Source: Candidatus Jettenia ecosi (lineage in GTDB: Bacteria > Planctomycetota > Brocadiia > Brocadiales > Brocadiaceae). From it: a DNA stretch of 64,000 bases. Position 1 is the first letter of the stretch. Each line of letters opens with the position of its first letter. A program made the position numbers and the translations under genes. This document shows, piece after piece, positions 32,011-55,645 of the stretch. The notes under the pieces are model-generated. The model did no database searches. It was not told the origin of the DNA and worked only from the letters and a program-made list of their open reading frames with translations. The stretch is taken from assembly GCA_005524015.1 (NCBI GenBank), contig SULG01000009.1, forward strand, positions 1-64,000, read 5' to 3'.

Positions 32011-32169
32011 TTCATGATAAAATCTTTTACTTAATAATTATTTTAGGTTATAATTATTTTGAATAGGCAAAGCCTATGAATTATTTTATCTTTACAATCA
32101 CTATTAACATGACATATGGTCTATGACCATGTGTTTCTTCAATACATATACATTTGCAGGAGATGTAAC

Positions 32170-33393
32170 ATGATTGGCATATCAAAGTTGTATTGTGGCA
32201 CCGTAGAGCCATCCGACGCGCTACGATATGGTAGAGAATCTAAGAAACTACCATCACATTTATTACAATTCTCTCGGGATAAAAAACCCGTTGTGGTATG
32301 GAATGTTGGACAGCGTTGTAACCTGAAATGCATTCATTGCTATTCTCAATCAAAGGATATTGAATATCCTAATGAATTATCAACACAAGAGGCAAAGGCC
32401 ATGCTGGATGATATTGTTAGTTATGGAGCTCCCGTAATCTTGTTCTCCGGGGGAGAGCCTCTTATGAGACATGATCTCCTTGAATTAATCGGTTATGCGA
32501 AAGAGAAAGGCTTGCGCGCGGTTATTAGTACGAATGGTACATTAATTACCAGAGAGAAGGTAAATGAATTAAAAAAATTTGGACTCTCGTATGTTGGAAT
32601 TAGTCTGGATGGCCTTAAAGTTACCAATGACCGTTTTCGTGGTATTCCGGGTGCATTTGATGCCGCATTGGAAGGTATTCGAAATTGTATGTCAGTAGGC
32701 ATTAAAGTCGGTTTGCGTTTTACCATTAATAAAAGGAATGCTCATGATATTCCCGGTATTTTTCAGCTTATTGAAGAAGAAAATATCCCGAGGGTATGTT
32801 TCTATCACCTTGTCTATTCAGGCAGAGGTTCTAATTTAATCGAGGAAGACCTTTCTCATAAAGAGACACGAGATGTTGTTGATCTTATTATCAACAAAAC
32901 CAAAGAAGCGCATGATAAAGGTAAAAAAATTGAAGTGCTTACTGTAGATAATCATGCCGATGGCCCTTATATCTATCTACGATTATTGAGTGAGAATTCT
33001 CATAGGGCAAAAGATGTGCTAGAGCTACTCCAGTGGAATGAAGGGAATAGTTCTGGTAAAGGGCTTGCCTGCATAAGTTGGGATGGCGAGGTATATGCTG
33101 ACCAGTTCTGGAGACAATATTCTTTCGGAAATATAAGAAAAAGGAAGTTTAGCGATATATGGGAGGATACTTCCAATGAGTTAATGGCTAAGCTTAAGAA
33201 CAAAAATCCTTATATCAAAGGACGCTGTGCAAAGTGTAAGTGGCTTACTATCTGTAGTGGGAATTTTAGAGCAAGAGCTGAGGCATACTATGGCGATATA
33301 TGGGAACAAGACCCTGCTTGTTACCTCACTGATGAAGAAATAGGTCTTAAAGCTGAATTACCGAAGAAGGTAAGACAAAAAGTATCTATCTGA
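32170..33393 (+). CDS. ahbC: 12,18-didecarboxysiroheme deacetylase (AhbC/NirJ family radical SAM)
   Basis: 407 residues from ATG 32170 with GGAG 9 bp upstream. The radical SAM cluster motif is CNLKCIHC in VVWNVGQRCNLKCIHCYSQS; FSGGEP binds SAM. The C-terminal SPASM-like region holds CAKCKWLTICSGNFRARAEA and DPACYLTDEE, and LTVDNHADGPYIYL is characteristic of the AhbC/NirJ branch. AhbC removes acetate chains from didecarboxysiroheme in the siroheme-dependent heme pathway; NirJ does an analogous step for heme d1. Either fits an organism rich in c-type cytochromes. The next enzyme (AhbD) and the earlier AhbA/B are not in this window, so AhbC versus NirJ is not settled. Confidence 0.85.
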   Translation: MIGISKLYCGTVEPSDALRYGRESKKLPSHLLQFSRDKKPVVVWNVGQRCNLKCIHCYSQSKDIEYPNELSTQEAKAMLDDIVSYGAPVILFSGGEPLMRHDLLELIGYAKEKGLRAVISTNGTLITREKVNELKKFGLSYVGISLDGLKVTNDRFRGIPGAFDAALEGIRNCMSVGIKVGLRFTINKRNAHDIPGIFQLIEEENIPRVCFYHLVYSGRGSNLIEEDLSHKETRDVVDLIINKTKEAHDKGKKIEVLTVDNHADGPYIYLRLLSENSHRAKDVLELLQWNEGNSSGKGLACISWDGEVYADQFWRQYSFGNIRKRKFSDIWEDTSNELMAKLKNKNPYIKGRCAKCKWLTICSGNFRARAEAYYGDIWEQDPACYLTDEEIGLKAELPKKVRQKVSI

Positions 33394-33527: not shown

Positions 33528-34808
33528 TCAGAATTTATAAGTAAAATCTATAGCCAGTATATGGGTAATGAGATCGTAACGTCCATCTATGGGCGGCCCT
33601 GTCATAAGTGGTTTCGTCGCATCTTCTCCGACTGAGTTATCTATCTTTCTGTTCTCATAAAATACTACTCCGTAAGTGAAGTTAACCCATTTATTCAGAT
33701 TTCTTCCCCAGCCATATCCCAATCCCGCAAATAAGGCATGTCGGCTGCTTTGAGGAACAGAAGGCTCAAAGGTTTCGCTGGGAACAGGCGATTCGTGAAA
33801 GGCGTAACCTCCTCTTACTTTTGTAGCATCATTTAAACAATATTCTCCACCCAGGGCAAAACCCAGGGTATTGTCCCAATTTCGGACGTCATCATGGCTT
33901 GCCCCCAAAAAGGTATTTGCTGGTTCAAAATCAGATTTAAGAACATCGAATCGCGACCAATTAGTCCACTGGATATCAGCTTCTATACTCCAAAGATTTC
34001 CATGTCTATATGCATAGCCGAATGAGAGCATTTCTGGTATAGTTGCAGTTGTCTGAGTATCTACATCAAAATCGGGTACGACCCCAAGCTGAGAAAGTTT
34101 TAGATTGCCATCAAAATCGAAATCTGCCTTACTCCGGAATGCAATACCAATACTATGGCGGGGAGTAATATTACAGAGTATACCAGCGTTGTACCCAAAG
34201 GCATCACCATGAAAATCAATATCCTCAAATCCTTCAGGAGCGCCAGAAGCTAAGGGTGCGAACCTCTTGCTTTGGCTAGACTCAGCGTAGTAGTAATCAA
34301 GTCCCACGCCTAGTGAAAGGAAAGAGAATGGTTTAAAAGTAAGAGTTGGATTTACATTAATTATTTTCAAATCAAATTCAGTAATTACAAACCGGGAAAA
34401 GCCTTCATCGTCCCATTCACCGTTCAATCCATAGGGAACCGTTACCCCTATGCCTGCAGCTAATTTATTCTTTAAGATCGGACTAGCAAAATAAAAATAG
34501 GGTATGGCATTTAGCCCTGTCTCCATGTCTTCACTAACTCCGTTACCCTCATACTCAACTGAAGAAATGAGAAAACTAGAACCCAGAGACACTTGTGGTC
34601 TTTCAAGTTGTGTGAGACCGGCAGGGTTAAATGCAATTGCAGACGCATCATCTGCACGAGCTACAAAAGCATTTCCTTGTGATAGCGCTAAAGCGCCAAA
34701 GACAGGATTATGCAAACCAGAGGCTATCTGTGCTGATACGTCTGTTGCCTTAAAGGAGAAAACGAGGGTGAAAATGCAGACTACAACTAACCGTTTCATG
34801 GTAAGCAT
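33528..34808 (-). CDS. FadL/OMPP1-family outer-membrane transporter
   Basis: 426 residues with a signal peptide (LVVVCIFTLVFSFKATDVSAQ). After it, the FadL signature GLHNPVFGALALSQGNAFVA, then DDASAIAFNPAGLTQLERPQ, and alternating beta strands throughout to the terminal aromatic strand ILAIDFTYKF, typical of outer-membrane barrels. FadL proteins pass hydrophobic compounds such as fatty acids or hydrocarbons. In an organism with unusual lipids this could move lipid precursors or scavenged hydrophobic substrates. It stands alone between a terminator and the HD-GYP gene. Confidence 0.88.
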   Translation of the reverse strand: MLTMKRLVVVCIFTLVFSFKATDVSAQIASGLHNPVFGALALSQGNAFVARADDASAIAFNPAGLTQLERPQVSLGSSFLISSVEYEGNGVSEDMETGLNAIPYFYFASPILKNKLAAGIGVTVPYGLNGEWDDEGFSRFVITEFDLKIINVNPTLTFKPFSFLSLGVGLDYYYAESSQSKRFAPLASGAPEGFEDIDFHGDAFGYNAGILCNITPRHSIGIAFRSKADFDFDGNLKLSQLGVVPDFDVDTQTTATIPEMLSFGYAYRHGNLWSIEADIQWTNWSRFDVLKSDFEPANTFLGASHDDVRNWDNTLGFALGGEYCLNDATKVRGGYAFHESPVPSETFEPSVPQSSRHALFAGLGYGWGRNLNKWVNFTYGVVFYENRKIDNSVGEDATKPLMTGPPIDGRYDLITHILAIDFTYKF

Positions 34809-34969: not shown

Positions 34970-36019
34970 TTATTGTACATCATCGCTTGGTTCTGAAAAT
35001 TCATCAATCTGCTTATTTTCATTGCTAATTTCATAGTATTTGTCAATGATAGTAAGAACCTCTTCGGTCAGATTAGGTACAAATTGAGTATTTATCCCTT
35101 CCGTGATAATTTCGAACGCCTTTTCATGAGAAAATTTTTTACGGTAATGTCTGTCAGAAGTTAAGGCATCGTAAACATCTATTATGGAGAAAATAGCAGC
35201 CTCATGAGGAATTTCTGCTTCCTTCAAGCCATCTGGATAACCCTGACCGTTATACCATTCGTGATGATGACGCACAATTGGCAAACTTTCTTTCAAAAAA
35301 TTTATAGGCTCAAGAATATTATAACCAATCTCAGGATGTCGCTTCATTAAAAGAAATTCATCCGCAGTAAGATAGTTTGGTTTCATAAGTACTGTATCAA
35401 TTACACCAATCTTTCCTATATCGTGAAGGAATGCGCCATACCGCAAAACTTCAATTTTTGATTTGCTCATGCCAAGTTCGTCAGCTACTAGAGAAAAGAG
35501 CCATGATACGTTCTTTGAGTGAGTTGCTGTGTAAGAATCTTTAGCATCTATTGCAAGTAAAAGAGCATGTGCAGTTGAAAAGAAATTCTTATGAACAGCC
35601 ATCTTCAGATTGTATACCAGCATATCCTTTTTTGATAATTCATTACGGTAGTTAAGAGCCTTATCTACCGCTGCATATATTTCGGAAAGATTAAAGGGTT
35701 TTATAATATAATCAAATGCGCCATTTCGTAAAGCGGTGATCGCGGTTTGTGAGGAAGGGTATGCTGTAATCATAATTATGGGGATTGCAGAATTAATAGA
35801 TTGCATTTGCTTAAGAAAGTCTAAGCCATTTGACTTTGGCATTCGTATATCAAGAAATATTATTTCTGGTTTAATACTTTTTAGATTATTCAGTGCTTCA
35901 TTAACACTTGATGATGTAAAAACGGAATACCTGTCTTTTAGAGTCATTTTTAATGATTCTCTTACACCAAGATCATCATCGATTACCAGTATATTTGCTG
36001 ATTTAGTTTTTTGTTCCAT
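34970..36019 (-). CDS. Response regulator with HD-GYP domain
   Basis: 349 residues, ATG at 36019 with GAGGAATT. Receiver domain (residues about 8-125): VIDDDLGVRESL carries the acidic pair, IIFLDIRMPKSNG the phospho-accepting Asp, MITAYP the Thr and IIKPF the Lys. The HD-GYP domain (about 155-335) keeps HSKNV, the metal site FLHDIGKIGVID, RHHHEWYNGQGYPDG and DVYDALTSDR. HD-GYP proteins hydrolyse cyclic di-GMP. Its partner kinase is not adjacent; the large sensor kinase at 42140 is a candidate on proximity only. Confidence 0.92.
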   Translation of the reverse strand: MEQKTKSANILVIDDDLGVRESLKMTLKDRYSVFTSSSVNEALNNLKSIKPEIIFLDIRMPKSNGLDFLKQMQSINSAIPIIMITAYPSSQTAITALRNGAFDYIIKPFNLSEIYAAVDKALNYRNELSKKDMLVYNLKMAVHKNFFSTAHALLLAIDAKDSYTATHSKNVSWLFSLVADELGMSKSKIEVLRYGAFLHDIGKIGVIDTVLMKPNYLTADEFLLMKRHPEIGYNILEPINFLKESLPIVRHHHEWYNGQGYPDGLKEAEIPHEAAIFSIIDVYDALTSDRHYRKKFSHEKAFEIITEGINTQFVPNLTEEVLTIIDKYYEISNENKQIDEFSEPSDDVQ

Positions 36020-37032
36020 ATGATAATTCCTCTAATCCAGAATTGTGACGCATTTTTTGTACCAACTTGCTTTGAGAGTTTGGTAATGAATTGTATCTTA
36101 CTTGTATTTGAGACTAATTATTCATAGCGTAATTTAGAAAGAGAATTTATGGATAATTTTACACAAAAGCTATATTGATAAACACTTAAGTATTATCATA
36201 AGTAAAGACCGTTCATCTTTTTATTATTTCGCATTAGACTATCTAAACATTTCAAAACTTAACTATCTATCAATTTATAAGTTAAAGTAAATTTTGTAAT
36301 CTTATTAACAGTATAAAAATTGTAAACTAACTTCTGGTTTATGTATTGATTATCCACTGGATATTTTAGACAAAAATGTTTATTATTGCCCAGAATTGAA
36401 CATTTATTATTGGATTTTATTTTAATAAAGATATAAAATTTTCAGAAAAATTTATAAATTTTTGGATGACTAAAAAGAAATGCAAGAGAGTTGGAAAAGC
36501 AAGGCATCCACATAATATTTTTTCGAAAACCTTAATGTTTTATTGAATTGCCAGATTATTAAATAATGGCTAACATAAAAATACCTTAAGTATTTAACGC
36601 ATTGAATAATCATTCTCTGCAAGCAACAATCTTAAAGCGAATACTATCAAAGAACAATATAGCCTTGTAAATGCCTATTTCAATAGCTATAGTATGAGGC
36701 GTTATAATTTAATAGTAATGATTGCTTTTGTCAATATATATTCAATAAACGAAGACAACATAATTATTATATTATTATGTTGGAATTACCTTGCCTGAAT
36801 AATTTTTGGGATCAGAAATAAATCAACCGTGTTATCACTAAATTATTTAAACATGGGCATAAAAATTGCAATCTTTAACTGCAGTATTCAAACTGAGATA
36901 TTGTGATAAAATTTTTCCAAAGTATTACTGAATTATATCTTAGATATAACTTTCCTATTATCATAGTAAGGTAAATTCGAATATAACTTTGACATTATTG
37001 TATACTTTTAGTGGATTAATGAGGGGGTGACT
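36020..37032. other. 1-kb AT-rich intergenic region between divergent genes
   Basis: No gene, repeat or RNA structure recognised. The stretch is extremely AT-rich and flanked by divergently oriented response-regulator genes, so it must hold both promoters. No frame of useful length has a ribosome site. Candidates for small RNAs or binding sites cannot be judged by eye. Confidence 0.5.
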
Positions 37033-38517
37033 ATGTACTCTTTTCTCGTAGTCTCAAATGATACTTCAGTTTGCAATTTTTTTAAAAAGAATTTGGATGG
37101 AGACTATATAGTTTATACTGCCAGGACGCCTGACGAAGCATTACAAATATTCCTTGATAGAGACATAGATGTAACTTTCCTTGATATTCTTTTATCTGAT
37201 GACGGGGCAAATAAATTGTTAGAAACGCTTCGCCAGGCAAATCAAGACCCAATGATTGTTACGTTAATTCCAGAATCGCAACCAACATTATCTGAAGAGG
37301 CTATAAAATTGGGAGCTTATGAATTTCTTGAAAAACCTTTTAAAAAAGAGACAATACAGCTTGTTGCAAAGAGAGCGCTGGAAAAACAGGAGCTTAAAAG
37401 AGAGCTTGGTTTTATTCAATCGCAAATAAAAAGTTTAAAACCTGAAGATAACAGACCATCTGAGTTAACATTCAATAAGCAGCCAACCGTTAGTAATCTG
37501 CACCTGGCATATAAAGAAGTCTTCCAGAAGTTCTCGAAGGCATTAACGCAGGTTTATGACCTTGGAAAGCTTGCTGATTCGATTGTTGATGCAATTGCTG
37601 ATATATTCAAAGTGGGAAAAATAGTGTTTATGCTGGTAAATAAACATGAAGGTCTTAGCAGGCCTTATCGTTGTCTGGGTCTTGACGAAGTAACTGCCAG
37701 AAGTATTTTCTTTACCAACAACCAGGGTATTATATTATGGCTATCCAAGAACCATCAGATATTAAATAAGGATGTTATAGATAGAGAAATTGCCACGAAT
37801 AAATTAACTATGCGTGAAGTAATAAATGTACAAAAGGAAATAAATCTTTTACAAGCGCAATTATGCATACCTATCTTTGCTAATGGAAATCTCAGTTGTG
37901 TAATCGCCTTGGGTAATAAGATTACCGGTAAGGTGTTTTTTGATGAGGATATTGAATTATTATCTATGTTGGCGGGATATATAGGCATGGCTGTGGAGAA
38001 TGCATTCCTTTATCAGGAGGTAAATCTCAGGAAAATTCATAATGAGAATGTATTGGAAAATATTCCTTACGGTATAATTGCCATAAATACAGCATATAAG
38101 ATTAACACCTTCAATAGAAGCGCTTCAAAGATGTTAAATATTTCTTCTCATGATGTATTGGGAAAGGATGTTAAGTATATTGGCTCTCTCTTTGCCGATT
38201 CTCTCCTGAGAACTTTAAAAGAGAAAAAAACATATAAGATGAAAGAGGTAACACATCCGGTTACCCAAGCTACTTATGATGTCAGTACATCTTTATTGTT
38301 AGATTCTTATACAGAAATTGGCGCAATTATGATATTTTCAGATCTGAGCGAGGTTGTAAAATTAGAAACAAAGATAAAGGACTTAGAGAGATTAGTAATC
38401 GGATATTTAGGTAACTCTGAGAATGCAATTCCTCATGATGTAACACAGGCGGTTACCGATCTGTCTAAAGACTGGATTTCCGAACGCCAACGGTTAAGTT
38501 TAAAGCAGGATTCATAG
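37033..38517 (+). CDS. Receiver-GAF-PAS signalling protein without kinase
   Basis: 494 residues from ATG 37033, with GAGGGGG directly upstream. Receiver domain (residues about 3-118) with FLDILL Asp, VTLI Thr and EKPFKK Lys; the first acidic pocket is reduced to NDT, so phosphorylation may be altered. A GAF-type domain covers about 165-325 (LCIPIFANGNLSCVIALGNK, MLAGYIGMAVENAFLYQEV) and a PAS domain about 335-440 (IPYGIIAINTAYKINTFNRS). There is no histidine kinase or DNA-binding output. The GAF-PAS region resembles that of the sensor kinase at 42140, suggesting a common origin. It may act as a phospho-relay or adaptor. Confidence 0.85.
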   Translation: MYSFLVVSNDTSVCNFFKKNLDGDYIVYTARTPDEALQIFLDRDIDVTFLDILLSDDGANKLLETLRQANQDPMIVTLIPESQPTLSEEAIKLGAYEFLEKPFKKETIQLVAKRALEKQELKRELGFIQSQIKSLKPEDNRPSELTFNKQPTVSNLHLAYKEVFQKFSKALTQVYDLGKLADSIVDAIADIFKVGKIVFMLVNKHEGLSRPYRCLGLDEVTARSIFFTNNQGIILWLSKNHQILNKDVIDREIATNKLTMREVINVQKEINLLQAQLCIPIFANGNLSCVIALGNKITGKVFFDEDIELLSMLAGYIGMAVENAFLYQEVNLRKIHNENVLENIPYGIIAINTAYKINTFNRSASKMLNISSHDVLGKDVKYIGSLFADSLLRTLKEKKTYKMKEVTHPVTQATYDVSTSLLLDSYTEIGAIMIFSDLSEVVKLETKIKDLERLVIGYLGNSENAIPHDVTQAVTDLSKDWISERQRLSLKQDS

Positions 38518-39066
38518 TATAGATGCAGTTAATATTCTTTTGTTTTCTTCTATCTATAAAGAAGATGTAAAAAGGAATAAAAACATTAATAAAAAGTTAG
38601 GTAAAGAATATACTAAATTTGTCTTAGTTCGATAAAAGAGGATAAAGTAATATCATTTCATTTATGCATGAGCAAATAATTTTTTGAATAGAGTATCTTA
38701 TGGTATCTCTGATAATTCAGGAAAAAGTCACAACTTTCTCTTCCCCTTCTAAATATGCCTATGCATCAAATGGCATGTGAATAACCTAGCTAGCGCTTGA
38801 TTAACAAAGAGATAATTACCAAATCAGTTTCTCCTAAAATAGCTCATCAGATTCTATCCCATCAAAGACTCAAAAGTCTGCAGTACCATCTACTGCAACA
38901 TCTTAAACACTTGTGCGATAAGATATTTTATCTTACTGTCTTCAAAATCATTGCCTTTTATAAATATCAAAGTGATGAAATTCAGGAATAGATAATTAAG
39001 AAATTGGACTATTTAGCGTAATTGTTTTTTGCTATCTCAATCTATGCAATTTTTAGGAGGCTTGTT
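38518..39066. other. Intergenic, 549 bp
   Basis: A 64-codon plus-strand frame at 38797-38991 lacks a ribosome site and known features, so it is not called. The ribosome site AGGAGG at 39055-39060 serves the radical SAM gene. Nothing else was seen. Confidence 0.5.
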
Positions 39067-40851
39067 ATGGACAATTCTCAAAGCATAGACCTTATGCTAT
39101 GGAATTCATTTATGGGGAAGGCCTATTCCCTTAGTGATTGCTTTAAAGAGAATGGTATTGGAGTGCTCGCGAGGGCTTGCAGGAATGCAGGGTTTGATAT
39201 TACGATTGAAGATCCTGCGCAAATCGAATTTTATACATCATTCACAAAAAATGATTTAACGCAAAAGTTATCAGAACTTGCTTTTCGTATCTTCCATAAG
39301 GGAAGTGTTGAAGATGTTGTATCTTTAAGAGGAAAATGGAATCTTCTTCAGGATAATCTCACAAAAATTATCAAAAAAAGAATGGAGAACTATATTGATG
39401 CTTTGGCGGCAAAGATAGGTAAGAAGCGAGTAAAAGTACTTGGTATAAAAACCTGGCTTGGAGATAGATTTGTATACTCTGAAAAGCTTGCGCAAAGGGT
39501 CCATGAATTGAGTCCGAATACGTTAGTTATTGCCGGCGGGCCACAGGTTAATCAATTTAAGACAAACGCATTAGAAAAAAGTTCCTTTGATTTTTGTATA
39601 GATGTTGAGGGTGAAATAACCTTAATAAAAATTGTTACCCTGGTAAAAGAGATGTATGCTCAGGGAAGTACAAAACCTGATGTAATAAAAAAGATTATTT
39701 CCCTTGCTGAAGCTGATGAAATTTCTAATCTGATATACAGAAGCAGTAACGGTAAGGTGAAAGAAACAACTATTCAGAGACTTCCTTTAAACTCAAAACT
39801 TTTTCCTTTTTATGAGAAGGGTGATGGAAAGGTAGATATCGCAGTAATAAACGAATCCTCAGGATGCCATTATGGAAAGTGCAGTTTTTGCACACATCCC
39901 AATATCACCGGAAGGTATCAGAGCCGAGATATTCATCTAACTATTGATGAAATTAAGAAAACGATTCAGGAACTGAGTATCGGACTTTTCAGATTTGCCG
40001 GCTCTACCACACCTGTTTCTCTTGCCAGGCGAATCGCGGATGCAGTAGTAAAAGAAGGTCTGATTATAGAGTACTCCATGTTTGTGCGGGCAGAACGTGG
40101 AGCAGGGGAACGAATGGCGGAATTAATTGATTCTTATGAGAAAATAATACGTTCAGGACTTCGGGCTGTTTTCATGGGTGTTGAAGCTGCTAACGATGAA
40201 ATCCTTACAAAAGTCATGAATAAAGGTAATTCTGTAGAAGATATTTATTTTACCATTAAAGCCATAAAGCAGGCATCATATAATCAAAGAAAATATCTTG
40301 ACGTAGGACTAAGTTTTATATATCCTTGCCCATTACCCCATGATAGTAATGTAAATCATGAGCAAGTTTTGGAAGAGAATTTATGTTTACTTCGTAAATT
40401 AAAAAATGAGAATTATAAGCCAGATTCTATTCTCATAACCCCTGGCGCACCGTTGCCTGCAACAAACTGGCAATTAGAACCTGAACAATTTGGCTTCAAA
40501 CTGCCTGAAGGTTATATGCAGACTATTTTACGCTATGAATATGAGCTAACAAAAGATCCAAGTACATGGCCTGAACTAAATATCTCCTTACATGGAATAA
40601 AGTTTTTGGATATGCTTAAGATGGCCGGACTCATGGAGAAAAAGGTTCGGGAAATGGGTTATCCGGTTAACATCTCTGATGAACATTGTCTTGCAGCAAG
40701 AAGCGCAGGATTTATGGATCAAAAGGGGTTGGAAGAATTTAAGATGAAGAGTGATTTGTCTTTACTAACTACAGATTACAGTTTCCTTAGAGATGTTTAC
40801 CAAAGGATAAATACGTACAGCCGTAAATTAGCCGAGAAAAACTCTCTTTAA
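39067..40851 (+). CDS. B12-binding-type radical SAM protein
   Basis: 594 residues from ATG 39067, with AGGAGG 6 bp upstream; a longer frame to 39022 precedes that site. Residues about 1-210 have a B12-binding-like Rossmann shape (VKVLGIKTWLGDRFVYSEKL, TLVIAGGPQVNQF) but no clear D-x-H-x2-G, so lower-ligand binding is doubtful. The radical SAM core follows: SSGCHYGKCSFCTHPN gives a C-x4-C-x2-C cluster motif rather than C-x3-C-x2-C, a spacing also seen in some relatives. VFMGVEAANDEIL and the GLSFIYPCPLP strand complete the barrel. A C-terminal region of about 130 residues is unassigned. It lies 34 bp before the ketosynthase gene, so the two are probably co-transcribed. The substrate is unknown. 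Confidence 0.8.
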   Translation: MDNSQSIDLMLWNSFMGKAYSLSDCFKENGIGVLARACRNAGFDITIEDPAQIEFYTSFTKNDLTQKLSELAFRIFHKGSVEDVVSLRGKWNLLQDNLTKIIKKRMENYIDALAAKIGKKRVKVLGIKTWLGDRFVYSEKLAQRVHELSPNTLVIAGGPQVNQFKTNALEKSSFDFCIDVEGEITLIKIVTLVKEMYAQGSTKPDVIKKIISLAEADEISNLIYRSSNGKVKETTIQRLPLNSKLFPFYEKGDGKVDIAVINESSGCHYGKCSFCTHPNITGRYQSRDIHLTIDEIKKTIQELSIGLFRFAGSTTPVSLARRIADAVVKEGLIIEYSMFVRAERGAGERMAELIDSYEKIIRSGLRAVFMGVEAANDEILTKVMNKGNSVEDIYFTIKAIKQASYNQRKYLDVGLSFIYPCPLPHDSNVNHEQVLEENLCLLRKLKNENYKPDSILITPGAPLPATNWQLEPEQFGFKLPEGYMQTILRYEYELTKDPSTWPELNISLHGIKFLDMLKMAGLMEKKVREMGYPVNISDEHCLAARSAGFMDQKGLEEFKMKSDLSLLTTDYSFLRDVYQRINTYSRKLAEKNSL

Positions 40852-40885
40852 CCAATAAAGATATTCTTTAAGGAGGAAAAGCTCA

Positions 40886-42130
40886 ATGGTTACAAGGCGT
40901 GCTGTTATTACTGGCTTGGGAATATTGGCGCCAAATGGGAATGGGAAAGATGAGTACTGGGATGCGCTTATTCATGGAAGATCAGGTATAAGGAAGATCG
41001 CTTCTTTTGATCCCTCTCCTTTCAGTACACAAATTGCTGGTGAGGTAAAAAATTTTGATCCTTGCGATTATTTTGATCCAAAATTGGTCAAAAGAAGTGG
41101 AAGATTTACTCACTTTGGTGTTGCAACAGCAAAGATGGCAGTAGCAGATTCCGGCATTAATTTAAGCAGAGAGAATCGAGATAGATTCGGGGTATGTTTT
41201 GGATCAACGATAGGGGCTGAGAATGATATATATGAGGGTCAACATAAGAAATTCTTAGACTCTGGCCCAAAGGCTGTTAGCCGCTTTACTGCTCCTGAAT
41301 TTACACCTCATGTAACAACTGGTTATATATGTTCGGAATTAAATATTGCCGGGCCTAATTCTACATTGTGCTCAGGATGTTCAACCGGACTTGATGTTGT
41401 AAATTGGGGTTATAATATGGTAAAACAAGGAACAGTAGATGTGGCAATTGTAGGAAGCGCAGATGCCCCAATCTTTCCTTTTGCCATGGCAACTTTCTGT
41501 GCTTTGGGAATTCTTTCAAAAAGAAATGAAGAACCTGAGGTGGCCTCACGACCATATGATAAGGATCGTGATGGTATGGTACTTAGTGAGGGTGGCGCAG
41601 CAATAGTGATTGAGGAATTGAATCATGCTGTAAACAGAGGTGCAGATATATATGCTGAGATTATATCCTATGCATCTGCAAGTGATGGGCAAGATGTTGT
41701 TCGGGTTGATGCTAATGGGCTAGGATTAGTCACCGCGTTGGAACAAGCATTGAATTCCGGAAAGATTAGAAAAGAAGAGATAGACTATATTTGTGCTCAC
41801 GGAAACGCCATTCCTAGCTATGATGTGTCAGAAACAAATGCCTTTAAGTCGTTTTTCGGGGAACGTGCGTATAAAATTCCGATAAGTTCCATTAAATCCA
41901 TGACTGGCCAGGCTTATGCTGCCGGAGGTAGTTTTCAAGTAGTAGCAACGAGTCTCATGATAAAAAATGGAGTTATTTCTCCTACAATTAATTTAGATGT
42001 GCCAGATTCCCTTTGTGATCTAGACTATGTCCCGCACCATGCCAGATATTTCACCATGGATACAGTATTAATAAATAGCCATAGTGTCGGTGGTACACAT
42101 GCCGTGCTCGTATTAAGAAAATATTTATAG
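40886..42130 (+). CDS. Beta-ketoacyl-ACP synthase (FabF-like) with His-to-Gln change
   Basis: 414 residues, ATG at 40886 with AAGGAGG. KAS-II-like throughout: RRAVITGLGILAPNGNGKDE at the start, nucleophile C165 in STLCSGCSTGLDVV, first active-site His305 in ICAHGNAIPSYD, and a GGTHAVLVL end. The second catalytic His of FabF (in the SMTGH motif) is Gln342 here (SIKSMTGQAYAAGG). FabF uses Cys-His-His, FabH Cys-His-Asn; the Gln might mimic the latter or abolish malonyl decarboxylation. Also altered is the usual HGT-S/T-P motif (HGNAIP). It sits between a radical SAM gene and the sensor kinase gene (9 bp away). It likely elongates or primes a special acyl chain; ladderane-type lipids are a possibility, not shown here. 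Confidence 0.87.
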   Translation: MVTRRAVITGLGILAPNGNGKDEYWDALIHGRSGIRKIASFDPSPFSTQIAGEVKNFDPCDYFDPKLVKRSGRFTHFGVATAKMAVADSGINLSRENRDRFGVCFGSTIGAENDIYEGQHKKFLDSGPKAVSRFTAPEFTPHVTTGYICSELNIAGPNSTLCSGCSTGLDVVNWGYNMVKQGTVDVAIVGSADAPIFPFAMATFCALGILSKRNEEPEVASRPYDKDRDGMVLSEGGAAIVIEELNHAVNRGADIYAEIISYASASDGQDVVRVDANGLGLVTALEQALNSGKIRKEEIDYICAHGNAIPSYDVSETNAFKSFFGERAYKIPISSIKSMTGQAYAAGGSFQVVATSLMIKNGVISPTINLDVPDSLCDLDYVPHHARYFTMDTVLINSHSVGGTHAVLVLRKYL

Positions 42131-42139
42131 AAAGAGATT

Positions 42140-44710
42140 ATGCCTGCGAGCAGAGTCGTATTCATTCTTATATCTTTATTAATTGCAGGACTTGGAATCT
42201 TTGTTTTTTTAAGAAATCCTACAAATGGTATTAATAAAAGATTCTGTCTCTTTGCGCATGTTATATCAATATGGATATTCTTTGTTTTTCTTGTACTCCA
42301 TACAATCGATCCAATTTTGGCTACTTTTAGACTGAAGTTAGTCTTTAGTGCTGCTATCTTTATTCCTTCTACTTTTTTCTTTTTTTCATCTATCTTTCCT
42401 GATCGAAAGGAAAGGCCTATCGATAAGTACTTAAGCATATCTTTTTTTGTTATAAGTATCTTCCTAGCATTTTCTTCTTCCTATATTGTTGAATCTGTAT
42501 CCTTTGCAAGGGGGTGGCCTTGTGCCAAGTATGGTCCATTATTTTCTGTATTTTGGTTTTATTTTATTATGTGTATGGCGCACTCTTTTTATATCCTTTA
42601 CAGAAAAAGTGTTAACTATTACGGAATAAAAAGATTACAGATTCAATATTTATATTTTGGGGTAGCAACATCCGTGTTTTTTGGAAGTATTACAAATTTT
42701 CTCTTACCGGCATTAGGTGTATGGCAAGTTGAGATGTTTGTACCTTTGGTATCCATTCCTATTCCGATAGCGGTAGCCTATGCTATTGCGAAATACCACC
42801 TCATGGATATCAGCGTGGTAATCAAGCGGAGTACGGTTTACCTTGCTCTATCCATTGCCATGAGCGCAATCTATTTCATTATTGGAGTATTTCTAAGTAG
42901 CATCCTTCCGGCATCAGAGCACAGGAATACCATTACTAACGTAGTGTCTATAATAGTAACGTTTATAGCCTTTGTATCTGCTCGAGAATCAATCCAACAT
43001 GTTATTGAGAAGATTTTTTTCCACACCAGGTATAGCCATTCAAAGATACTGAGTGATTCTACAATAATGTTCTCTTCTATCCATGATTTGAGTGGCCTTC
43101 TTCATTATGCCATCCAGTACTTGTATGATTCTGTAGGTATCGAAAAGACATGCATACTGCTAAAAGAAGAAGACACCAAAAATTATAGATTAAAGGCAGC
43201 TATAAATTTTACGCCTGAAGATAATTTGTTTCTCCTGAGTCAGGATATCATCATTACGTGGCTTTGCCAGAATAGAACAGTTCTTTCACGGGATCAGTTG
43301 TACCGTTTTACCCACAGCGAGCTTGACCGTGTACTAGAGGAGAAATTAGCGTCCCTAAATGTCGAAAGTTGTGTTCCGGTTTTTCAAAAGAATGACCTCT
43401 TCGGTATAATTTTTTTGGGGAAGAAGATAAACAAAAAAATTTTTATCCAGGAAGATATTCAGATGTTTCTTGCCTTTTCTGGTCAATTAGCCATGGCGGT
43501 TAATAATGCCCGTCTTTATGCAGGATTGAAAGAGGCTAAAGTTTATAGAGATAATATCCTTCAGAGCCTGAAAACCGGTGTTATCGTTATGGATAATAAT
43601 AGTAATCTTACTCTTATCAATAATGAAGCGAAAAGAATTCTCGGGTTGGAGAATGCCAGTACAACCGAAATAATACTTAAGTACCTTGGCAGAGATGCCC
43701 GGGAGGCGATTCGATATACCTTGAACAATGAGGGAGAATGTCATAATTTCGAAGTTCTTGTCGAACGTGAAAATAAAAAAATACCTTGTGGTATGACCAC
43801 AACAAGCCTCAGGACTGAGGACGGGGAGAAGCTTGGGGCCTTAATAATTTTGACAGACCTGACAGAATTGAAACTGCTTCAGAGCGAAAAGCAGCATTCC
43901 GAACGGTTAGCATATCTCGGCACTCTTGCAGCCAATATTGCACATGAGATAAAAAATCCACTGGTAGCAATAAACACCTATTTTCAGCTGCTTCCTCACA
44001 AGAAAAATGACGAAGAATTTCATAATGATTTCCAGAAAATTGCTATAAAGGAAATAGAGAGGATTAATAGAATTATTGAAGATTTATTAGATTTGGCAAA
44101 ACCTTCTAAACCCGTCCTGCAGAATATAGATCCTCATGGCGCCATAATAGATACCGTAAATTTTCTCAGGAATATTGCCGCAGAGAAAGGTATTAAAATA
44201 ATTACCGCCTTTGAAGAAAAAAGATGCCAGCTTATTGCAGATGAAGATAAGATAAGGCAGGTGCTGATAAATCTTCTGCAGAATAGTCTTGATGCGCTGC
44301 CAGAAAACGGGTGCATCAGGGTAAGCACAAGCTTGACAGAAGGCCTTTCTGAGTTTAAGAAAATGGCAAAAATACATCTGAATAGCACTTTCTTTTCCTT
44401 CGCTTCGCTTTCAGTGCATGATCGAAATGACAAGCTATATTTTGTTATTAAGATCTCAGATAATGGCATCGGAATTTCTGCCGAGAAAATCTCACAGATC
44501 TTTGAACCATTCTTTACTGATAAGGACAGAGGTACAGGGCTGGGACTCGCTATGGTATACAGAATTATAAAAGATCATGAAGGAGCTATCTACGTAGAAA
44601 GCAAAGAGGGTATTGGAACTGATTTTTATATTAGCCTGCCTTTAAATCGCATGAACACAAATAACACAGATAATTTCGTATCAGAAACAATAGAGATACA
44701 TTCAGCATAA
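42140..44710 (+). CDS. Membrane sensor histidine kinase with GAF and PAS domains
   Basis: 856 residues, ATG at 42140. About seven to eight N-terminal membrane helices (residues 1-285), then a linker helix, a GAF domain about 300-455 (SCVPVFQKNDLFGIIFLGKK, FSGQLAMAVNNARLYAGLKE), a PAS domain about 465-580 (LKTGVIVMDNNSNLTLINNE), and the kinase core: LAANIAHEIKNPLVAINTYF with the phospho-accepting His, the N box RQVLINLLQNSLDALPENG, and ATP-lid boxes ISDNGIGIS and RGTGLGLAMVY. It ends without a receiver. The cognate response regulator may be one of the two receiver proteins upstream. It is close to the ketosynthase gene and likely transcribed with it. Confidence 0.92.
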   Translation: MPASRVVFILISLLIAGLGIFVFLRNPTNGINKRFCLFAHVISIWIFFVFLVLHTIDPILATFRLKLVFSAAIFIPSTFFFFSSIFPDRKERPIDKYLSISFFVISIFLAFSSSYIVESVSFARGWPCAKYGPLFSVFWFYFIMCMAHSFYILYRKSVNYYGIKRLQIQYLYFGVATSVFFGSITNFLLPALGVWQVEMFVPLVSIPIPIAVAYAIAKYHLMDISVVIKRSTVYLALSIAMSAIYFIIGVFLSSILPASEHRNTITNVVSIIVTFIAFVSARESIQHVIEKIFFHTRYSHSKILSDSTIMFSSIHDLSGLLHYAIQYLYDSVGIEKTCILLKEEDTKNYRLKAAINFTPEDNLFLLSQDIIITWLCQNRTVLSRDQLYRFTHSELDRVLEEKLASLNVESCVPVFQKNDLFGIIFLGKKINKKIFIQEDIQMFLAFSGQLAMAVNNARLYAGLKEAKVYRDNILQSLKTGVIVMDNNSNLTLINNEAKRILGLENASTTEIILKYLGRDAREAIRYTLNNEGECHNFEVLVERENKKIPCGMTTTSLRTEDGEKLGALIILTDLTELKLLQSEKQHSERLAYLGTLAANIAHEIKNPLVAINTYFQLLPHKKNDEEFHNDFQKIAIKEIERINRIIEDLLDLAKPSKPVLQNIDPHGAIIDTVNFLRNIAAEKGIKIITAFEEKRCQLIADEDKIRQVLINLLQNSLDALPENGCIRVSTSLTEGLSEFKKMAKIHLNSTFFSFASLSVHDRNDKLYFVIKISDNGIGISAEKISQIFEPFFTDKDRGTGLGLAMVYRIIKDHEGAIYVESKEGIGTDFYISLPLNRMNTNNTDNFVSETIEIHSA

Positions 44711-45278: not shown

Positions 45279-46814
45279 TTATTTTTTCTCCCGTATCTTT
45301 TTTGACCTTAATTTTGCCTTTTTCTCTAACGCAGCCAACCGCCTTAAGGTACTAGCCTCACTCTGTATATCCACGTACTTCTTGAGTAAATTCGACCAGG
45401 AGATATAGGTAAAGCCGTTGGGATTCATGTGCGCTAAACCCTTCCTGACCAAAAAAGCATCATTCTCCCACATATATAAAAAGTCCTTCTCAATCCTGCT
45501 CGGATTTCCTCCTTTTGCCCAGAATTCTCCATAAAAGCCGCCAAGCAGGTCAGGATATTTTTCTGTTACGGGGGCAGGCGCTTTAGGCCTGTTTTCGGGC
45601 ATAGGGTAAAGTATTCCTTCTTCATAGAGTGATTTAATCGTAGCATAGGCATCGCTTACATAGTGAAAAATCGAATCTGATGCCTTATCCATGGAATCAA
45701 GATAATCACGGGAAAATCTTTGTGAATGGCACTGAACACATACCTCTATCCATGCTTCTCGCCTTGATTGCAGTTCTTTACTGTTCTTAATATAATCCGT
45801 TGGTTTGATCCCTTTAAAAATATTGTCATAAAAGAGCACGTCTCCTTCACCCATGATGGCTTTCCTAACCATATTATGTGAATATTGTCCTTTGTAATAC
45901 ATATGGCAGGATTGACAGGTAGGAGATATGTAGTTAGCATCCTTTAATTGCTTATTCCAATTCCAGCTATTGCCCTCAATAAAATAGATAGAGCCATGTT
46001 TAGAATCCCTGTAATATTCAATATCAGGGTGATCCGGCCCGTTATGACAAGTTTGGCATGCCTCGGGCCTTCTCGCTTCGGATGCCTTGAAGGCATGGCG
46101 GGTATGGCAGCTATCACACTTATGCTGGATGTTATGGCACATATCGCAGCCTTGAACGATATTCTTATCCTGTGCTGCCCATACGTCGACGCCCAGATTT
46201 GCATCATAAGCCTTTGCGTGACTTTCTCTGCCTGGCTTCCAATCAGGAATACCGTAGCGTTTCTCAGATTCAAACTCCTCAAATTCTTGCTTATGGCACT
46301 CGCCGCAATGGGCGGCGCTTGGCATTACCAATTCTTTTGCATGATCCAGCTTTTCAGCTCCGATCTTCCCATGACAGTCAATACAACCTACCGCAGTAAG
46401 TTTTTTTCCGAGGTGTTTCTCTATTTCGGCTAATTTCTCTCTCTGGTAATCCTGAAGTTTGCCAATAGGCGCATACGGAGGATTGGTTACTGGAGCCAGG
46501 CGGCTATCAATATTCTGATAATCCTGTATCTTATCGATCTTATCAAAATTTGCATGATTACTTTCTTCCCATGCCTTTACTAAACCCGGATTTAATGCTT
46601 TATGACAGGCCACACATTCCTCTTCGCTATAAACACCTTTTGGCTCTTCCGGCGGTGTATAGAAATAGTCCGGGGCCCAGTATCTTTGGGTAGGAATCGG
46701 CTTCCAGAACTCTCCGTATGGCCCTACCCCTTTATCCAGCCCTTTAGCCTCTACTATACCATCCGAAATACTAAAAATTATTGATACTGCGATAATTACT
46801 AAAATATTTCTCAT
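45279..46814 (-). CDS. Octaheme hydroxylamine oxidoreductase-like cytochrome c
   Basis: 511 residues from ATG 46814, preceded by GGAGGGG; the frame extends to 46853 but lacks a ribosome site there. A signal peptide (RNILVIIAVSIIFSISDGIVEA) directs it outside the cytoplasm. Eight CxxCH heme sites at about 67, 144, 170, 223, 233, 253, 300 and 359; the pattern HKCDSCHTRHAFKASEARRP between hemes 5 and 6 is diagnostic of HAO. HAO-family enzymes oxidise hydroxylamine or hydrazine, or run in reverse on nitrite. A Tyr in PNGFTYISW (about residue 470) lies where the Tyr that crosslinks to the catalytic heme in HAO would be expected, so an oxidative enzyme is likelier than a reductase; alignment is needed. 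No membrane anchor at the C-terminus. Confidence 0.92.
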   Translation of the reverse strand: MRNILVIIAVSIIFSISDGIVEAKGLDKGVGPYGEFWKPIPTQRYWAPDYFYTPPEEPKGVYSEEECVACHKALNPGLVKAWEESNHANFDKIDKIQDYQNIDSRLAPVTNPPYAPIGKLQDYQREKLAEIEKHLGKKLTAVGCIDCHGKIGAEKLDHAKELVMPSAAHCGECHKQEFEEFESEKRYGIPDWKPGRESHAKAYDANLGVDVWAAQDKNIVQGCDMCHNIQHKCDSCHTRHAFKASEARRPEACQTCHNGPDHPDIEYYRDSKHGSIYFIEGNSWNWNKQLKDANYISPTCQSCHMYYKGQYSHNMVRKAIMGEGDVLFYDNIFKGIKPTDYIKNSKELQSRREAWIEVCVQCHSQRFSRDYLDSMDKASDSIFHYVSDAYATIKSLYEEGILYPMPENRPKAPAPVTEKYPDLLGGFYGEFWAKGGNPSRIEKDFLYMWENDAFLVRKGLAHMNPNGFTYISWSNLLKKYVDIQSEASTLRRLAALEKKAKLRSKKIREKK

Positions 46815-47019
46815 AAACAACCCCTCCAATAAATAAAGTGCTTGTAAAGGCAACTCTCGGTTATTATAACGTGAGATTATAGTATTACTTTGTAAAAACC
46901 TTCCATAAATTTTTGGAATTTGGCGTCTGGCATTTGTTATTTCTTATAGAGTACATCACCATGTATATTTTCCCTTTCCAAATATTCATCGCAGCCTCAT
47001 TATCCTATGGAGCCTGTTC

Positions 47020-52795: not shown

Positions 52796-55645
52796 TTACG
52801 ATTTTGGGATGATCTCTAGATTCATTAAATAATCCTTCATTGCTTCTGCTTGTTCCTGAGGTGTTCCCGGAATATAATCCTGGAACTCTCCCTCTCTGAA
52901 AAACTTTGGCATCTTTGTGCCTGGCTGGATTGATTGCGGATCAAGCAACCACCTCTTTATCCAGTCCGGTTTTAATCTTGTCCTGGCAAGCATGAGATCA
53001 GGCGCCCAGCCCGTTGGGTCGCCTTCCGGCATTTTTTCTCCTTTTACGTGACATAATGTACAGTTGACATCTTTGGATTCAAATAGCTTCTTTGCTGCTA
53101 AGAGATAACCCGGCGATCTGGCCTCCTTCTCCTCTCTATACTCTTTCTTTGTTTCGACTACATACTCATAAGGATACTCTTCGTTTTCCCTCACAGCAAA
53201 GAATCTGGCAAGGCTGGCAGCCTCCTCATTTGGTAAACTAAACGACGGCATCTTTACATCCAGCCATGGCCTCAGATCTATAGGATCTTTTAAGAATTCA
53301 AATGCCCACGCAGGTTGAACCTTCTTACCTTCGCCATATAACAAGGGCGGAGCGAATACCCTTGCCTCTTCAGGCACGAGACCCTCATTATCGACATGAT
53401 ATTCTATAATCGACGATGCAAAATCAACCTTCTTAGCCCATTCCTTGCGCACAATTTGTTCTTTATCAATGAAGACAGTCTCGCCTGCCTTTTGCTTAAG
53501 TTCACCGCTATCTTCCATAAGTTGAAAATATACCCCATCTTCCTCATCCAGCTTTACCATTCCCTTAAGTTCTATTCCTCCTTCAACATATAATCTGTCC
53601 ACATCAAGCTGGTGGCATCCGGTACAATGGTACTTTCCAATGAGTCTCTTCCCCTCTGTTATGCCCTGTTCGCTTTCTGTGAGCCTATCGATATACGCAT
53701 CGGGAAGTTTTTCCTCTTTCAGTCCGGTGAGCAGCACAAGCAATGATTCTGTTTCTTCACCAGTTAATCCGAAGTCAGGCATCTTCAATAGATCCTCAGG
53801 TTTTTTGTACTTTCCTTTATCAAATTGTCTCGGATCTTGCAATTTTGCCCGTAGCCATGCCCGCCTTGCCTCACCTACATTCTCTGAGATATGCTTAAGC
53901 CCAACTTCGCCCAATATTCTTTTTTCCAAAAGTCCAAAATCGAGTAATTCAACATATTTAGACCCGATAGCCGATAACTCGACTCCAATCTTACCTAGCC
54001 CTTCCATACCCTGTATTTCATGACAGCTAAAACAACCATATTTCTTAATCAAGGCCTCTCCTGCGCGTGCCCGTTCCTTATCCTCTAACCACGTCACATC
54101 TGTTAACCCGTCTCTTGTAAAACCTATAGCTGTCTTACTTATCAGGTATCCAGCAACTAAACTTGCTTTTTCCTGATTAAGCCTGAAGTTTGGCATACGG
54201 GTGAGCGGCTCTTTTCCTTTCGGGTTTATAATCCACTCGACCAGATACCCATAGTTTATCTTCTCTCCAATCCTTGCCAGATTAGGCGCAAATCCACGCT
54301 CTGTATCTTTCTCATAAGAATGGCATGCCATGCATCCAATATGCTCAAAGATAAAATCGCCACGAGATAATTGCCCCTCATCAAATTTGGGTACCTCATC
54401 ATGTATATTTCTTTCATCTGCATGCTGCCACAGATAGGCTGCTATAGATTGAGATTCCTCTTCTGAAAGTTTGAAATTGGGCATCAACGTGGTAGGGCGG
54501 AAGGATTTTGGATCTTTTATCCATTCCGTAAGCCAGTCAGGTTTTACTTTATTCTTTATATTTCTCAGACCAGGACCTATCATTCTGTGTTTATCTTTAC
54601 CGAGACCCGTTGTTTCGTGGCATCCATGACAGCCAAGCTCTTCGAATAGCCTTCTCCCTTGCCAGAGAATTTCTGCGCCTTTTACTTCTTTGCCTTCGTT
54701 ATGGCACCGGATACATGATCCCTGAGCGGACTTGCCCCGGTATATCGGTGTAAGCCAGTATTCAACCTCTCCATGCGCCTTTTTTACCCCTGATGTAGCA
54801 TTAGCCTGCCCCTCGTGGCAGAGCGCGCAGCCAAATCTTTCTGGTGGATGATTACCTAAATATAAATCACGATCAGGATGGCTTGCATACGGTTGTTCTG
54901 CAGATACATTTTCTGTCCTGGTAATACCCACATGGCACGACATACACCGGTCTACGATAGATAAGTCCTCCAGATACATCTGGTATAATTGCAGACCCGG
55001 CCGGGTTTTTTTGAAATTTTTTAATTGCGCTTTGTATTTTTTCATTCCTGCCGTATAGGAATCTAATTCCTCGGCATAGGTAGTAATGCCGCGCTTCAGT
55101 TCAGTTAATCTCGTCTCTACAGAAACTAAATTGTCTTCAGCCTCTTTTGCCTTTGCAGCAAGGTCATTACCCTTTTCCTCCAGCGCAGCAATTTCATGTA
55201 TGATATATTCACTCGGATTTTTTCCAAAGAGATATTCCTTCTCTATGCGTTCATTCCGCGCCACAATTGCCTTAAACCGTAAGGATTCTAATGTTTTATT
55301 CAATACCGTTTGTTCTTCTGATAACTTTTTGTACTTATTTTGTATTGATGGCTTTTTGAAGTCTTCCCATGCATGTTCCAGATTGTTTTTTGTCTCTCCA
55401 TAGTTCTTTTGGGTTTCTGGGCTTTCAAAAATTGCGCGTTCCTTTTCGTATGCCTGTCTGATTTTGTCTGACTCTAAGCGATAAAATTGCTTTTGATATT
55501 TTTTCCACGGCCGTCTGTCAACCGTCTCATTTACGAGCACCCATATGGTGACTGCAACAAGGATAAAACTCACCGTGACATATATAACCAGGTAAGACTT
55601 GTCTTCTTCTCTTTTAATGGGATGTAGATTTTTGTTGTCAGACAT
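52796..55645 (-). CDS. Membrane-anchored eight-heme cytochrome c of the Rieske/cyt b operon
   Basis: 949 residues. One N-terminal membrane helix (about 19-39, YVTVSFILVAVTIWVLVNET is its core), a coiled-coil stretch about 50-215, then eight CxxCH sites at 234, 273, 311, 339, 438, 538, 674 and 862. The first three form a closely spaced multiheme segment. The last five look like class I monoheme modules, each followed by a Met ligand region (LMPNFKL, RMPNFRL, KMPDFGL, KMPSFSL, KMPKFF). It ends the operon, 10 bp after cytochrome b C-terminal part, so it is likely the cytochrome c1 counterpart and electron outlet of the complex. No alternative function is evident. Confidence 0.9.
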   Translation of the reverse strand: MSDNKNLHPIKREEDKSYLVIYVTVSFILVAVTIWVLVNETVDRRPWKKYQKQFYRLESDKIRQAYEKERAIFESPETQKNYGETKNNLEHAWEDFKKPSIQNKYKKLSEEQTVLNKTLESLRFKAIVARNERIEKEYLFGKNPSEYIIHEIAALEEKGNDLAAKAKEAEDNLVSVETRLTELKRGITTYAEELDSYTAGMKKYKAQLKNFKKTRPGLQLYQMYLEDLSIVDRCMSCHVGITRTENVSAEQPYASHPDRDLYLGNHPPERFGCALCHEGQANATSGVKKAHGEVEYWLTPIYRGKSAQGSCIRCHNEGKEVKGAEILWQGRRLFEELGCHGCHETTGLGKDKHRMIGPGLRNIKNKVKPDWLTEWIKDPKSFRPTTLMPNFKLSEEESQSIAAYLWQHADERNIHDEVPKFDEGQLSRGDFIFEHIGCMACHSYEKDTERGFAPNLARIGEKINYGYLVEWIINPKGKEPLTRMPNFRLNQEKASLVAGYLISKTAIGFTRDGLTDVTWLEDKERARAGEALIKKYGCFSCHEIQGMEGLGKIGVELSAIGSKYVELLDFGLLEKRILGEVGLKHISENVGEARRAWLRAKLQDPRQFDKGKYKKPEDLLKMPDFGLTGEETESLLVLLTGLKEEKLPDAYIDRLTESEQGITEGKRLIGKYHCTGCHQLDVDRLYVEGGIELKGMVKLDEEDGVYFQLMEDSGELKQKAGETVFIDKEQIVRKEWAKKVDFASSIIEYHVDNEGLVPEEARVFAPPLLYGEGKKVQPAWAFEFLKDPIDLRPWLDVKMPSFSLPNEEAASLARFFAVRENEEYPYEYVVETKKEYREEKEARSPGYLLAAKKLFESKDVNCTLCHVKGEKMPEGDPTGWAPDLMLARTRLKPDWIKRWLLDPQSIQPGTKMPKFFREGEFQDYIPGTPQEQAEAMKDYLMNLEIIPKS

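Follow-up and report, generated by a model that had tools for sequence, protein, structure and literature searches.

A conserved radical SAM–ketosynthase operon beside a sensor kinase in one family of anammox bacteria: a candidate source of an uncharted acyl product

Ketosynthases (KSs) of the FabH (KAS III) type use an active site of cysteine and histidine plus an amide side chain, that of asparagine. The DSF/Rpf system pairs a crotonase-type synthase, RpfF, with a hybrid RpfC-type kinase and a REC-HD-GYP regulator. Among anammox bacteria, Kuenenia stuttgartiensis is a ladderane producer. According to the sections consulted of Rattray et al. (PMC2649909), it has eight KSs, three of which are altered and have Val, Phe or Ser in place of Cys163 (their Table 2). 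Its candidate ladderane clusters, as laid out in the parts consulted of that paper and of PMC4790861, contain several altered-site KSs, an acyl carrier protein (ACP) and radical SAM (rSAM) enzymes, one of them with B12.

Here we describe a locus from Candidatus Jettenia ecosi, found in a stretch of 64,000 nucleotides (contig SULG01000009.1, assembly GCA_005524015.1; "the window") of a 3.86-Mb genome in 223 contigs, referred to below as G000. Three genes lie head to tail on the plus strand, encoding a cobalamin-binding rSAM enzyme, a KS and a sensor kinase, with gaps of 34 and 9 bp (Table 1). Open reading frames, Pfam domains and residues all bear out this order and spacing as originally predicted, along with C165, H305 and Q342 of the KS and its SMTGQ motif; K337 is present as well. 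The rSAM gene may instead start farther upstream, at a TTG at 39022.

Table 1. Features of the rSAM–KS locus in the window
Feature	Position	Strand	Evidence or remark
FadL/TodX-family outer-membrane transporter	33528..34808	-	PF03349, 209 bits
Divergently oriented HD-GYP response regulator, a putative c-di-GMP phosphodiesterase	34970..36019	-	Pfam
Sigma54-like -24/-12 site GGGCATAAAAATTGC	36855..36869	+	8 of 10 consensus bases; before REC-GAF-PAS gene
REC-GAF-PAS protein lacking a kinase domain; its gene opens the conserved row	37027..38517	+	Pfam
Cobalamin-binding rSAM enzyme, 594 aa	39067..40851 (ATG)	+	PF04055, 43.6 bits; PF02310, 33.2 bits
Mosaic block: rSAM core, KS, kinase 7TM part	39850..42800	+	Comparison with G028; flanks nearly identical
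[4Fe-4S] cysteine motif C267-x4-C272-x2-C275 of rSAM enzyme	39865..39891	+	Three Cys invariant in all orthologues covering the motif (26 of the 27 aligned)
FabF-type KS, 414 aa, Cys165-His305-Gln342	40886..42130	+	Pfam ketoacyl-synt N and C
Codon of catalytic Cys165 of KS	41378..41380	+	Invariant in 29 copies
Codon of His305 of KS	41798..41800	+	Invariant in 29 copies
Codon of Gln342 of KS (place of second catalytic His of FabB/F)	41909..41911	+	CAG in window copy
Rebuilt gating loop N397-S-H399-S400-V401-G-G-T-H405 of KS	42074..42100	+	At place of FabF loop 1 (Asn396, GFGG 399-402, Asn404)
Sensor histidine kinase	42140..44710	+	Pfam 7TM, PAS, HisKA, HATPase

The radical SAM enzyme and the distribution of the pair

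Domain content marks the first gene product as a probable cobalamin-binding rSAM protein, the radical SAM and B12-binding domains both exceeding their cut-offs (29.5 and 32.1 bits, respectively). No NCBIfam model was above its own cut-off; PhpK (64 bits) and the ladderane family scored best, both far under theirs. No sequence relative was detected in the PDB at E 0.001. The predicted structure is poor (pLDDT 57.9), and Foldseek ranked TsrM and OxsB best, with five matches under E 0.001 at TM-scores of 0.21–0.27. B12-rSAM enzymes are not all methylases, as one published abstract states; we infer that this one most likely C-methylates an acyl chain. A literature search for papers linking 10-methylhexadecanoic with anammox found none. 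The reading frame is broken in genomes G014 and G027.

Orthologues of the KS (E 1e-130 or better) are present in 27 of the 62 genomes of the order, in 29 copies, three of which come from one mixed genome, G020. They are concentrated in the window's family, f1 (26 of 33 genomes), with one more in f2 (1 of 2 genomes; the outlier G002, 60% identical) and none in f3 (0/9), f4 (0/17) or f5 (0/1). The rSAM gene occurs in 26 of the 62, and the KS genome without a search match for it, G037, is 58% complete and has the end of an rSAM gene at a contig edge. This co-occurrence, together with adjacency, was counted in favor of a joint operon. Hydrazine dehydrogenase is found in 47 of the 62 genomes and in all 23 genera, and therefore we treat the whole order as anammox. 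On this distribution, we regard the operon as accessory to a single anammox family plus one outlier. G000 itself gave no hydrazine dehydrogenase match at 1e-150, and both same-genus genomes have two copies; perhaps a repeat was lost in the fragmented assembly.

At 1e-150, no KS was found outside the window's family in a sample of 392 Planctomycetota genomes. In the same sample only two rSAM matches fell outside the order, both distant (G362, 36%; G092, 30%). The 19.9 and 18.0 kb of sequence around them contain neither a KS nor an ACP match; an NtrC-like gene (40%) and a kinase adjoin the relative in G092. Phyla beyond the Planctomycetota were covered by a single-sequence scan, which finds close relatives only. 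The named records related to the window in that scan are Ca. Brocadia, Kuenenia and Loosdrechtia. An Omnitrophota KS (L024, 37%) is Cys-His-His and has no rSAM match in its 11.1 kb.

A link to ladderane synthesis, raised at the outset, fared poorly. The orthologues are restricted to the anammox order within the phylum sample, and the combination of rSAM enzyme, KS and ACP resembles the proposed ladderane clusters, as far as the consulted sections of PMC2649909 and PMC4790861 describe them. However, the KS is missing from 35 of the 62 genomes, which include all 17 of f4 and the single-contig, 4.4-Mb genome G031 of the Kuenenia genus, and is therefore unlikely to belong to the ladderane core. 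G031, which we take to be K. stuttgartiensis, has neither the KS nor the rSAM gene, and this fits the eight KSs described there, among which no altered one keeps Cys163. Moreover, the rSAM enzyme scores 60.6 bits against the ladderane B12-rSAM family TIGR04072, below the cut-off of 360, and the G000 member of that family is a different gene (at C38, 417 bits); the family reaches its cut-off in only 7 of the 62 genomes. Distribution and family score together led us to set aside a core role, and we consider it very unlikely that the locus is part of the ladderane pathway at all.

The ketosynthase active site

In profile searches the KS scored 404.1 bits against PRK07314, a KAS II subfamily (cut-off 387), and 422.2 bits against the FabF equivalog TIGR03150, below the curated cut-off of 493.75. 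Its best PDB sequence matches are FabF structures (E 2.5e-99), and at E 0.001 it has only the two ketoacyl-synt domains and none of the KAS III (FabH) Pfam families. The structure prediction had a mean pLDDT of 28.

The glutamine at position 342 had been put forward as a possible invariant of the clade and the sign of an altered KS. It is not invariant. Across the 29 copies from 27 genomes, position 342 is glutamine in 22 (CAA or CAG), the window copy included, and histidine, always CAT, in seven (G014, the third G020 copy, G021, G022, G023, G024 and G037), so that the triad test of FabB/F gives Cys-His-Gln in the former and Cys-His-His in the latter. In a tree of 55 rows, rooted at the midpoint and carrying a long-branch warning between groups, the 29 orthologues form one clade (100/100) and the seven histidine copies one clade nested within it (100/99). 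Glutamine is found in both the outlier G002 and the divergent G035, and by parsimony it is ancestral within the clade, with histidine regained once. Homologues beside the rSAM gene thus do carry histidine, but the window copy is not alone with its glutamine; a mutation confined to this copy, or a local error, was rejected on the 22 glutamine codons and the conserved gene order. Because histidine occurs in a nested clade, Gln342 alone does not prove altered chemistry, and we abandoned it as proof. A separate contig-derived set of 16 KS orthologues, the window's among them, has 15 with glutamine and one with histidine (L018); it overlaps many of the same genomes, so only the 29 copies are counted. 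Alignment A1 holds 14 of those 16, leaving out L012 and the truncated L023.

G000 has ten KS-domain matches, and its five other active-Cys KSs that were aligned all have histidine at the place of position 342. So do all 30 Cys-bearing KSs read in 30 loci of the order that match the C-terminal KS domain, a set of top-scoring proteins that is biased toward canonical KSs and was counted by eye; seven KS-beta-like proteins in these loci have no cysteine, and have glutamate there.

The changed pocket and gate are firmer grounds than Gln342 for calling the KS special, and it is in this form that the claim of an altered KS stands. At the eight FabB/F pocket positions of Table 2 in PMC2649909 (FabB numbering), three are kept (Cys163, His298 and Lys328) and five are changed (Thr300 to Asn, Thr302 to Ile or Met, His333 to Gln, Glu342 to Gln and Phe392 to Val). 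FabF loop 1, which the consulted part of PMC7138838 describes as highly conserved, with Asn396 and Asn404, reads N-S/T/A/G-H-S-V-G-G/N-T/S-H in the 29 copies: GFGG has become SVGG in 28 and SVGN in G035, while Asn396 is kept and Asn404 is histidine in all 29. C165, H305, K337, D313 and E316 are invariant, as are N397, H399, S400, V401, G402 and H405. Against five relatives the KS has dN of 0.085–0.127 and dS of 1.0–2.0, the latter near saturation; the low dN/dS indicates purifying selection.

Could this simply be an ordinary FabF paralogue whose pocket has drifted near-neutrally, beside an unrelated rSAM gene? The best library matches are indeed FabF models, and glutamine and histidine do exchange at position 342. 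Yet the co-occurrence and order with the rSAM gene are strict, the non-FabF residues are invariant and dN/dS is low, and we give this explanation a slim chance. The kept Cys-His-Lys set, a hydrogen-bond donor at position 342 and purifying selection instead point to a functional condensing enzyme of the Cys-His-amide type. Because the malonyl pocket and the gate are changed, the enzyme may have an unusual donor, carrier or timing, or it may have switched to acyl transfer.

In the last case, the KS would no longer condense, a loss that the largely changed malonyl-pocket positions of FabB/F make conceivable. Having given up its malonyl site, it would act as a Cys-His acyltransferase and pass the chain modified by the rSAM enzyme between carriers, or onto an amine or hydroxyl acceptor. 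The changes at Thr300, Thr302, His333, Glu342 and Phe392 would fit such a role, and eight loci contain a separate Cys-His-His KS that could elongate. On the other hand, all 29 copies retain Lys337 and His305, and seven have His342, which hints that a pocket of the decarboxylation type still has a use. We regard this alternative as somewhat unlikely.

Neighboring genes and possible signal control

In 28 of 29 copies the rSAM gene is the upstream neighbor of the KS within one contig, and the kinase lies downstream in 28 of 29, with G002 the exception, so the predicted association holds for both partners. The 277 bp ahead of the KS in G042 are taken up by other sequence, and the rSAM gene of this genome sits near the end of another contig; in G035 a 93-aa ORF separates the two. 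The distance from rSAM stop to KS start ranges from -50 to 507 bp, nine copies overlapping by 4–7 bp (the start in G017 is not resolved). The kinase has no receiver domain by Pfam, and its frame is broken in G014.

Further neighbors were counted by eye in the loci whose contigs reach far enough, five of the 29 copies being left out as lying on short contigs. A divergent REC-HD-GYP gene lies upstream in 19 of 20 loci (G039, G014, G023 and G035 also left out; exception G002) and FadL nearby in 17 of 20 (G039, G014, G023 and G020c also left out; exceptions G016, G018 and G002). The REC-GAF-PAS gene is longer in G029, G030 and G002 (699–722 aa), extending into kinase-like sequence in G002. An NtrC-type activator gene is present in 15 of 24 loci, and the protein from G020 has a sigma54-interaction domain by Pfam. 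Eight of 24 loci have a trio of KS-beta-like, KS-alpha and ACP genes upstream of the rSAM gene. In one locus (G020), Pfam supported the ACP (phosphopantetheine domain, 39.4 bits) and both KSs. The trio accompanies six of the seven His342 copies, the seventh not being reached, and occurs with glutamine in G019 and G035. G000 has no orthologue of NtrC (best 52%), KS-alpha (best 42%) or KS-beta (no match at 1e-80), and thus the window's genome carries a reduced form.

Several observations lie beside this picture. In G021 (L072) the KS-beta, NtrC and REC-GAF-PAS genes are broken and the KS-alpha, ACP, rSAM and KS frames are intact; either genes are being lost there or the assembly is wrong. G048, from a family without the rSAM–KS pair, has truncated remnants of a KS-alpha and a KS-beta gene (L105, 1473–2739) with about 65% identity to those of the trio, next to what by eye are putative transposase fragments. 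In the window, a multi-haem cytochrome related to hydrazine dehydrogenase (45279–46853, minus strand; 182 bits against a cut-off of 900) is a neighbor in 10 of 29 loci. A protein of 949 residues that combines cytochrome c with multi-haem cytochrome domains is encoded at 52796–55645 (minus strand), and the 12,18-didecarboxysiroheme deacetylase AhbC of the alternative haem pathway at 32116–33393 (plus strand; 723 bits, over the cut-off of 650).

In 16 of 21 loci, which are related and therefore not independent, a sigma54-like site matching at least 8 of 10 consensus bases precedes the first gene of the row by 57–183 bp; 0–10 of 200 mononucleotide shuffles per locus gave one. The site falls below 8 of 10 in G027 and G028, both of the window's genus, and in G029, G030 and G002. 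Sites directly before the rSAM or KS-beta gene were rejected (best 6 of 10, none convincing), as were minus-strand sites toward the HD-GYP gene, seen at 8 of 10 in too few loci (6 of 21); the one in G014 is the same near-palindrome as its plus-strand site. Given the NtrC, HD-GYP and sigma54-like elements of its relatives, signal control of the operon seems more plausible.

Compared in 100-base steps with the same-genus genome G028, the window is mostly at least 90% identical outside about 39850–42800 and 66–90% identical inside. This block extends from the rSAM cysteine motif across the KS and stops close to where the kinase 7TM region ends, with both borders near those of domains; G027 shows no such drop. 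It looks like a replacement by recombination, and the catalytic core and sensor may go together, although contiguity alone would suffice.

These neighbors raise the idea of a lipid-signal cassette, in which the rSAM enzyme and KS would make a fatty-acid-like signal, FadL would move it, the 7TM kinase would sense it and HD-GYP would lower c-di-GMP, as in DSF/Rpf with unrelated synthases. The frequency of FadL, REC-HD-GYP and the 7TM kinase around the pair is consistent with this, as is the change of rSAM core, KS and 7TM part as one block. Still, this is evidence of neighborhood, contiguous DNA changes together without a functional link, neither FadL nor HD-GYP is near the pair in the outlier G002 and the kinase has no receiver domain; we think such a cassette fairly improbable. 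A related conjecture, with a small chance of being right, is a self-sensed signal: the KS and B12-rSAM enzyme would make a branched acyl signal, perceived by the operon's own 7TM kinase and passed to NtrC/sigma54 and HD-GYP, by a route unrelated to RpfF.

The reading we prefer, tentatively and at somewhat less than even confidence, is a two-component-linked operon for a specialized acyl product, possibly an uncharted lipid, built by a KS with a Cys-His-amide site. It starts from gene content, conservation, residues and co-occurrence; every reaction, the partners, the methylation and the control are the conjectural part. The locus would form the biosynthetic part of the gene row that the family conserves. 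The KS would load an acyl chain onto Cys165 and form a C–C bond by decarboxylative condensation, with hydrogen bonds donated by His305 and by the amide of Gln342 (replaced by His in one subclade), like those from the His and Asn of FabH. The changed donor pocket and gate (N307, Q351, H399-S400-V401 and H405) would match a partner or carrier protein of an unusual kind. The B12-rSAM enzyme would modify, most likely C-methylate, the same carrier-bound chain. The trio, where kept, would supply that chain; elsewhere, the window included, the pair would take its chain from a different acyl-ACP pool. The operon would be switched by the 7TM kinase and, in loci that have it, by the NtrC-type regulator with sigma54. 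Against this reading stand the missing trio KS and NtrC orthologues of G000, the broken frames in G014 and G027 and the sigma54-like site under 8 of 10 in five loci.

Comparison with described systems

Overall, the locus is real and conserved, the argument from glutamine is weaker and the surroundings are richer than first noted, and the ladderane link is unsupported. We found no description of this operon in the consulted portions of the open-access literature on anammox lipid genes. In those portions, the published candidate lists (PMC2649909, PMC4790861) are built on K. stuttgartiensis, and the genome we assign to it is without the operon. The operon offers a testable enzyme pair for an uncharted acyl product and a case in which His and Gln have exchanged naturally at a catalytic position. 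It is also a control for ladderane hypotheses, since its presence or absence in a genome can be set against lipid profiles.

With FabF/KAS II the KS shares fold family, cysteine, first histidine, lysine and length; it differs in that the second His is Gln (or His), the Glu is Gln, the Thr following the first His is Asn and GFGG is SVGG. Its likeness to FabH/KAS III is one of working principle only, Cys-His plus an amide. TsrM and OxsB share the B12-binding and radical SAM architecture of the rSAM enzyme, without a PDB sequence match. The altered KSs of K. stuttgartiensis, in the part of PMC2649909 consulted, have lost the cysteine that our KS keeps, and the rSAM enzyme here falls below the cut-off of the ladderane B12-rSAM family. 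With DSF/Rpf the locus shares a membrane kinase and a REC-HD-GYP regulator beside lipid-making genes; in contrast, its kinase is not an RpfC-type hybrid, no RpfF crotonase-type synthase is among the window proteins scanned, and the synthase is unrelated.
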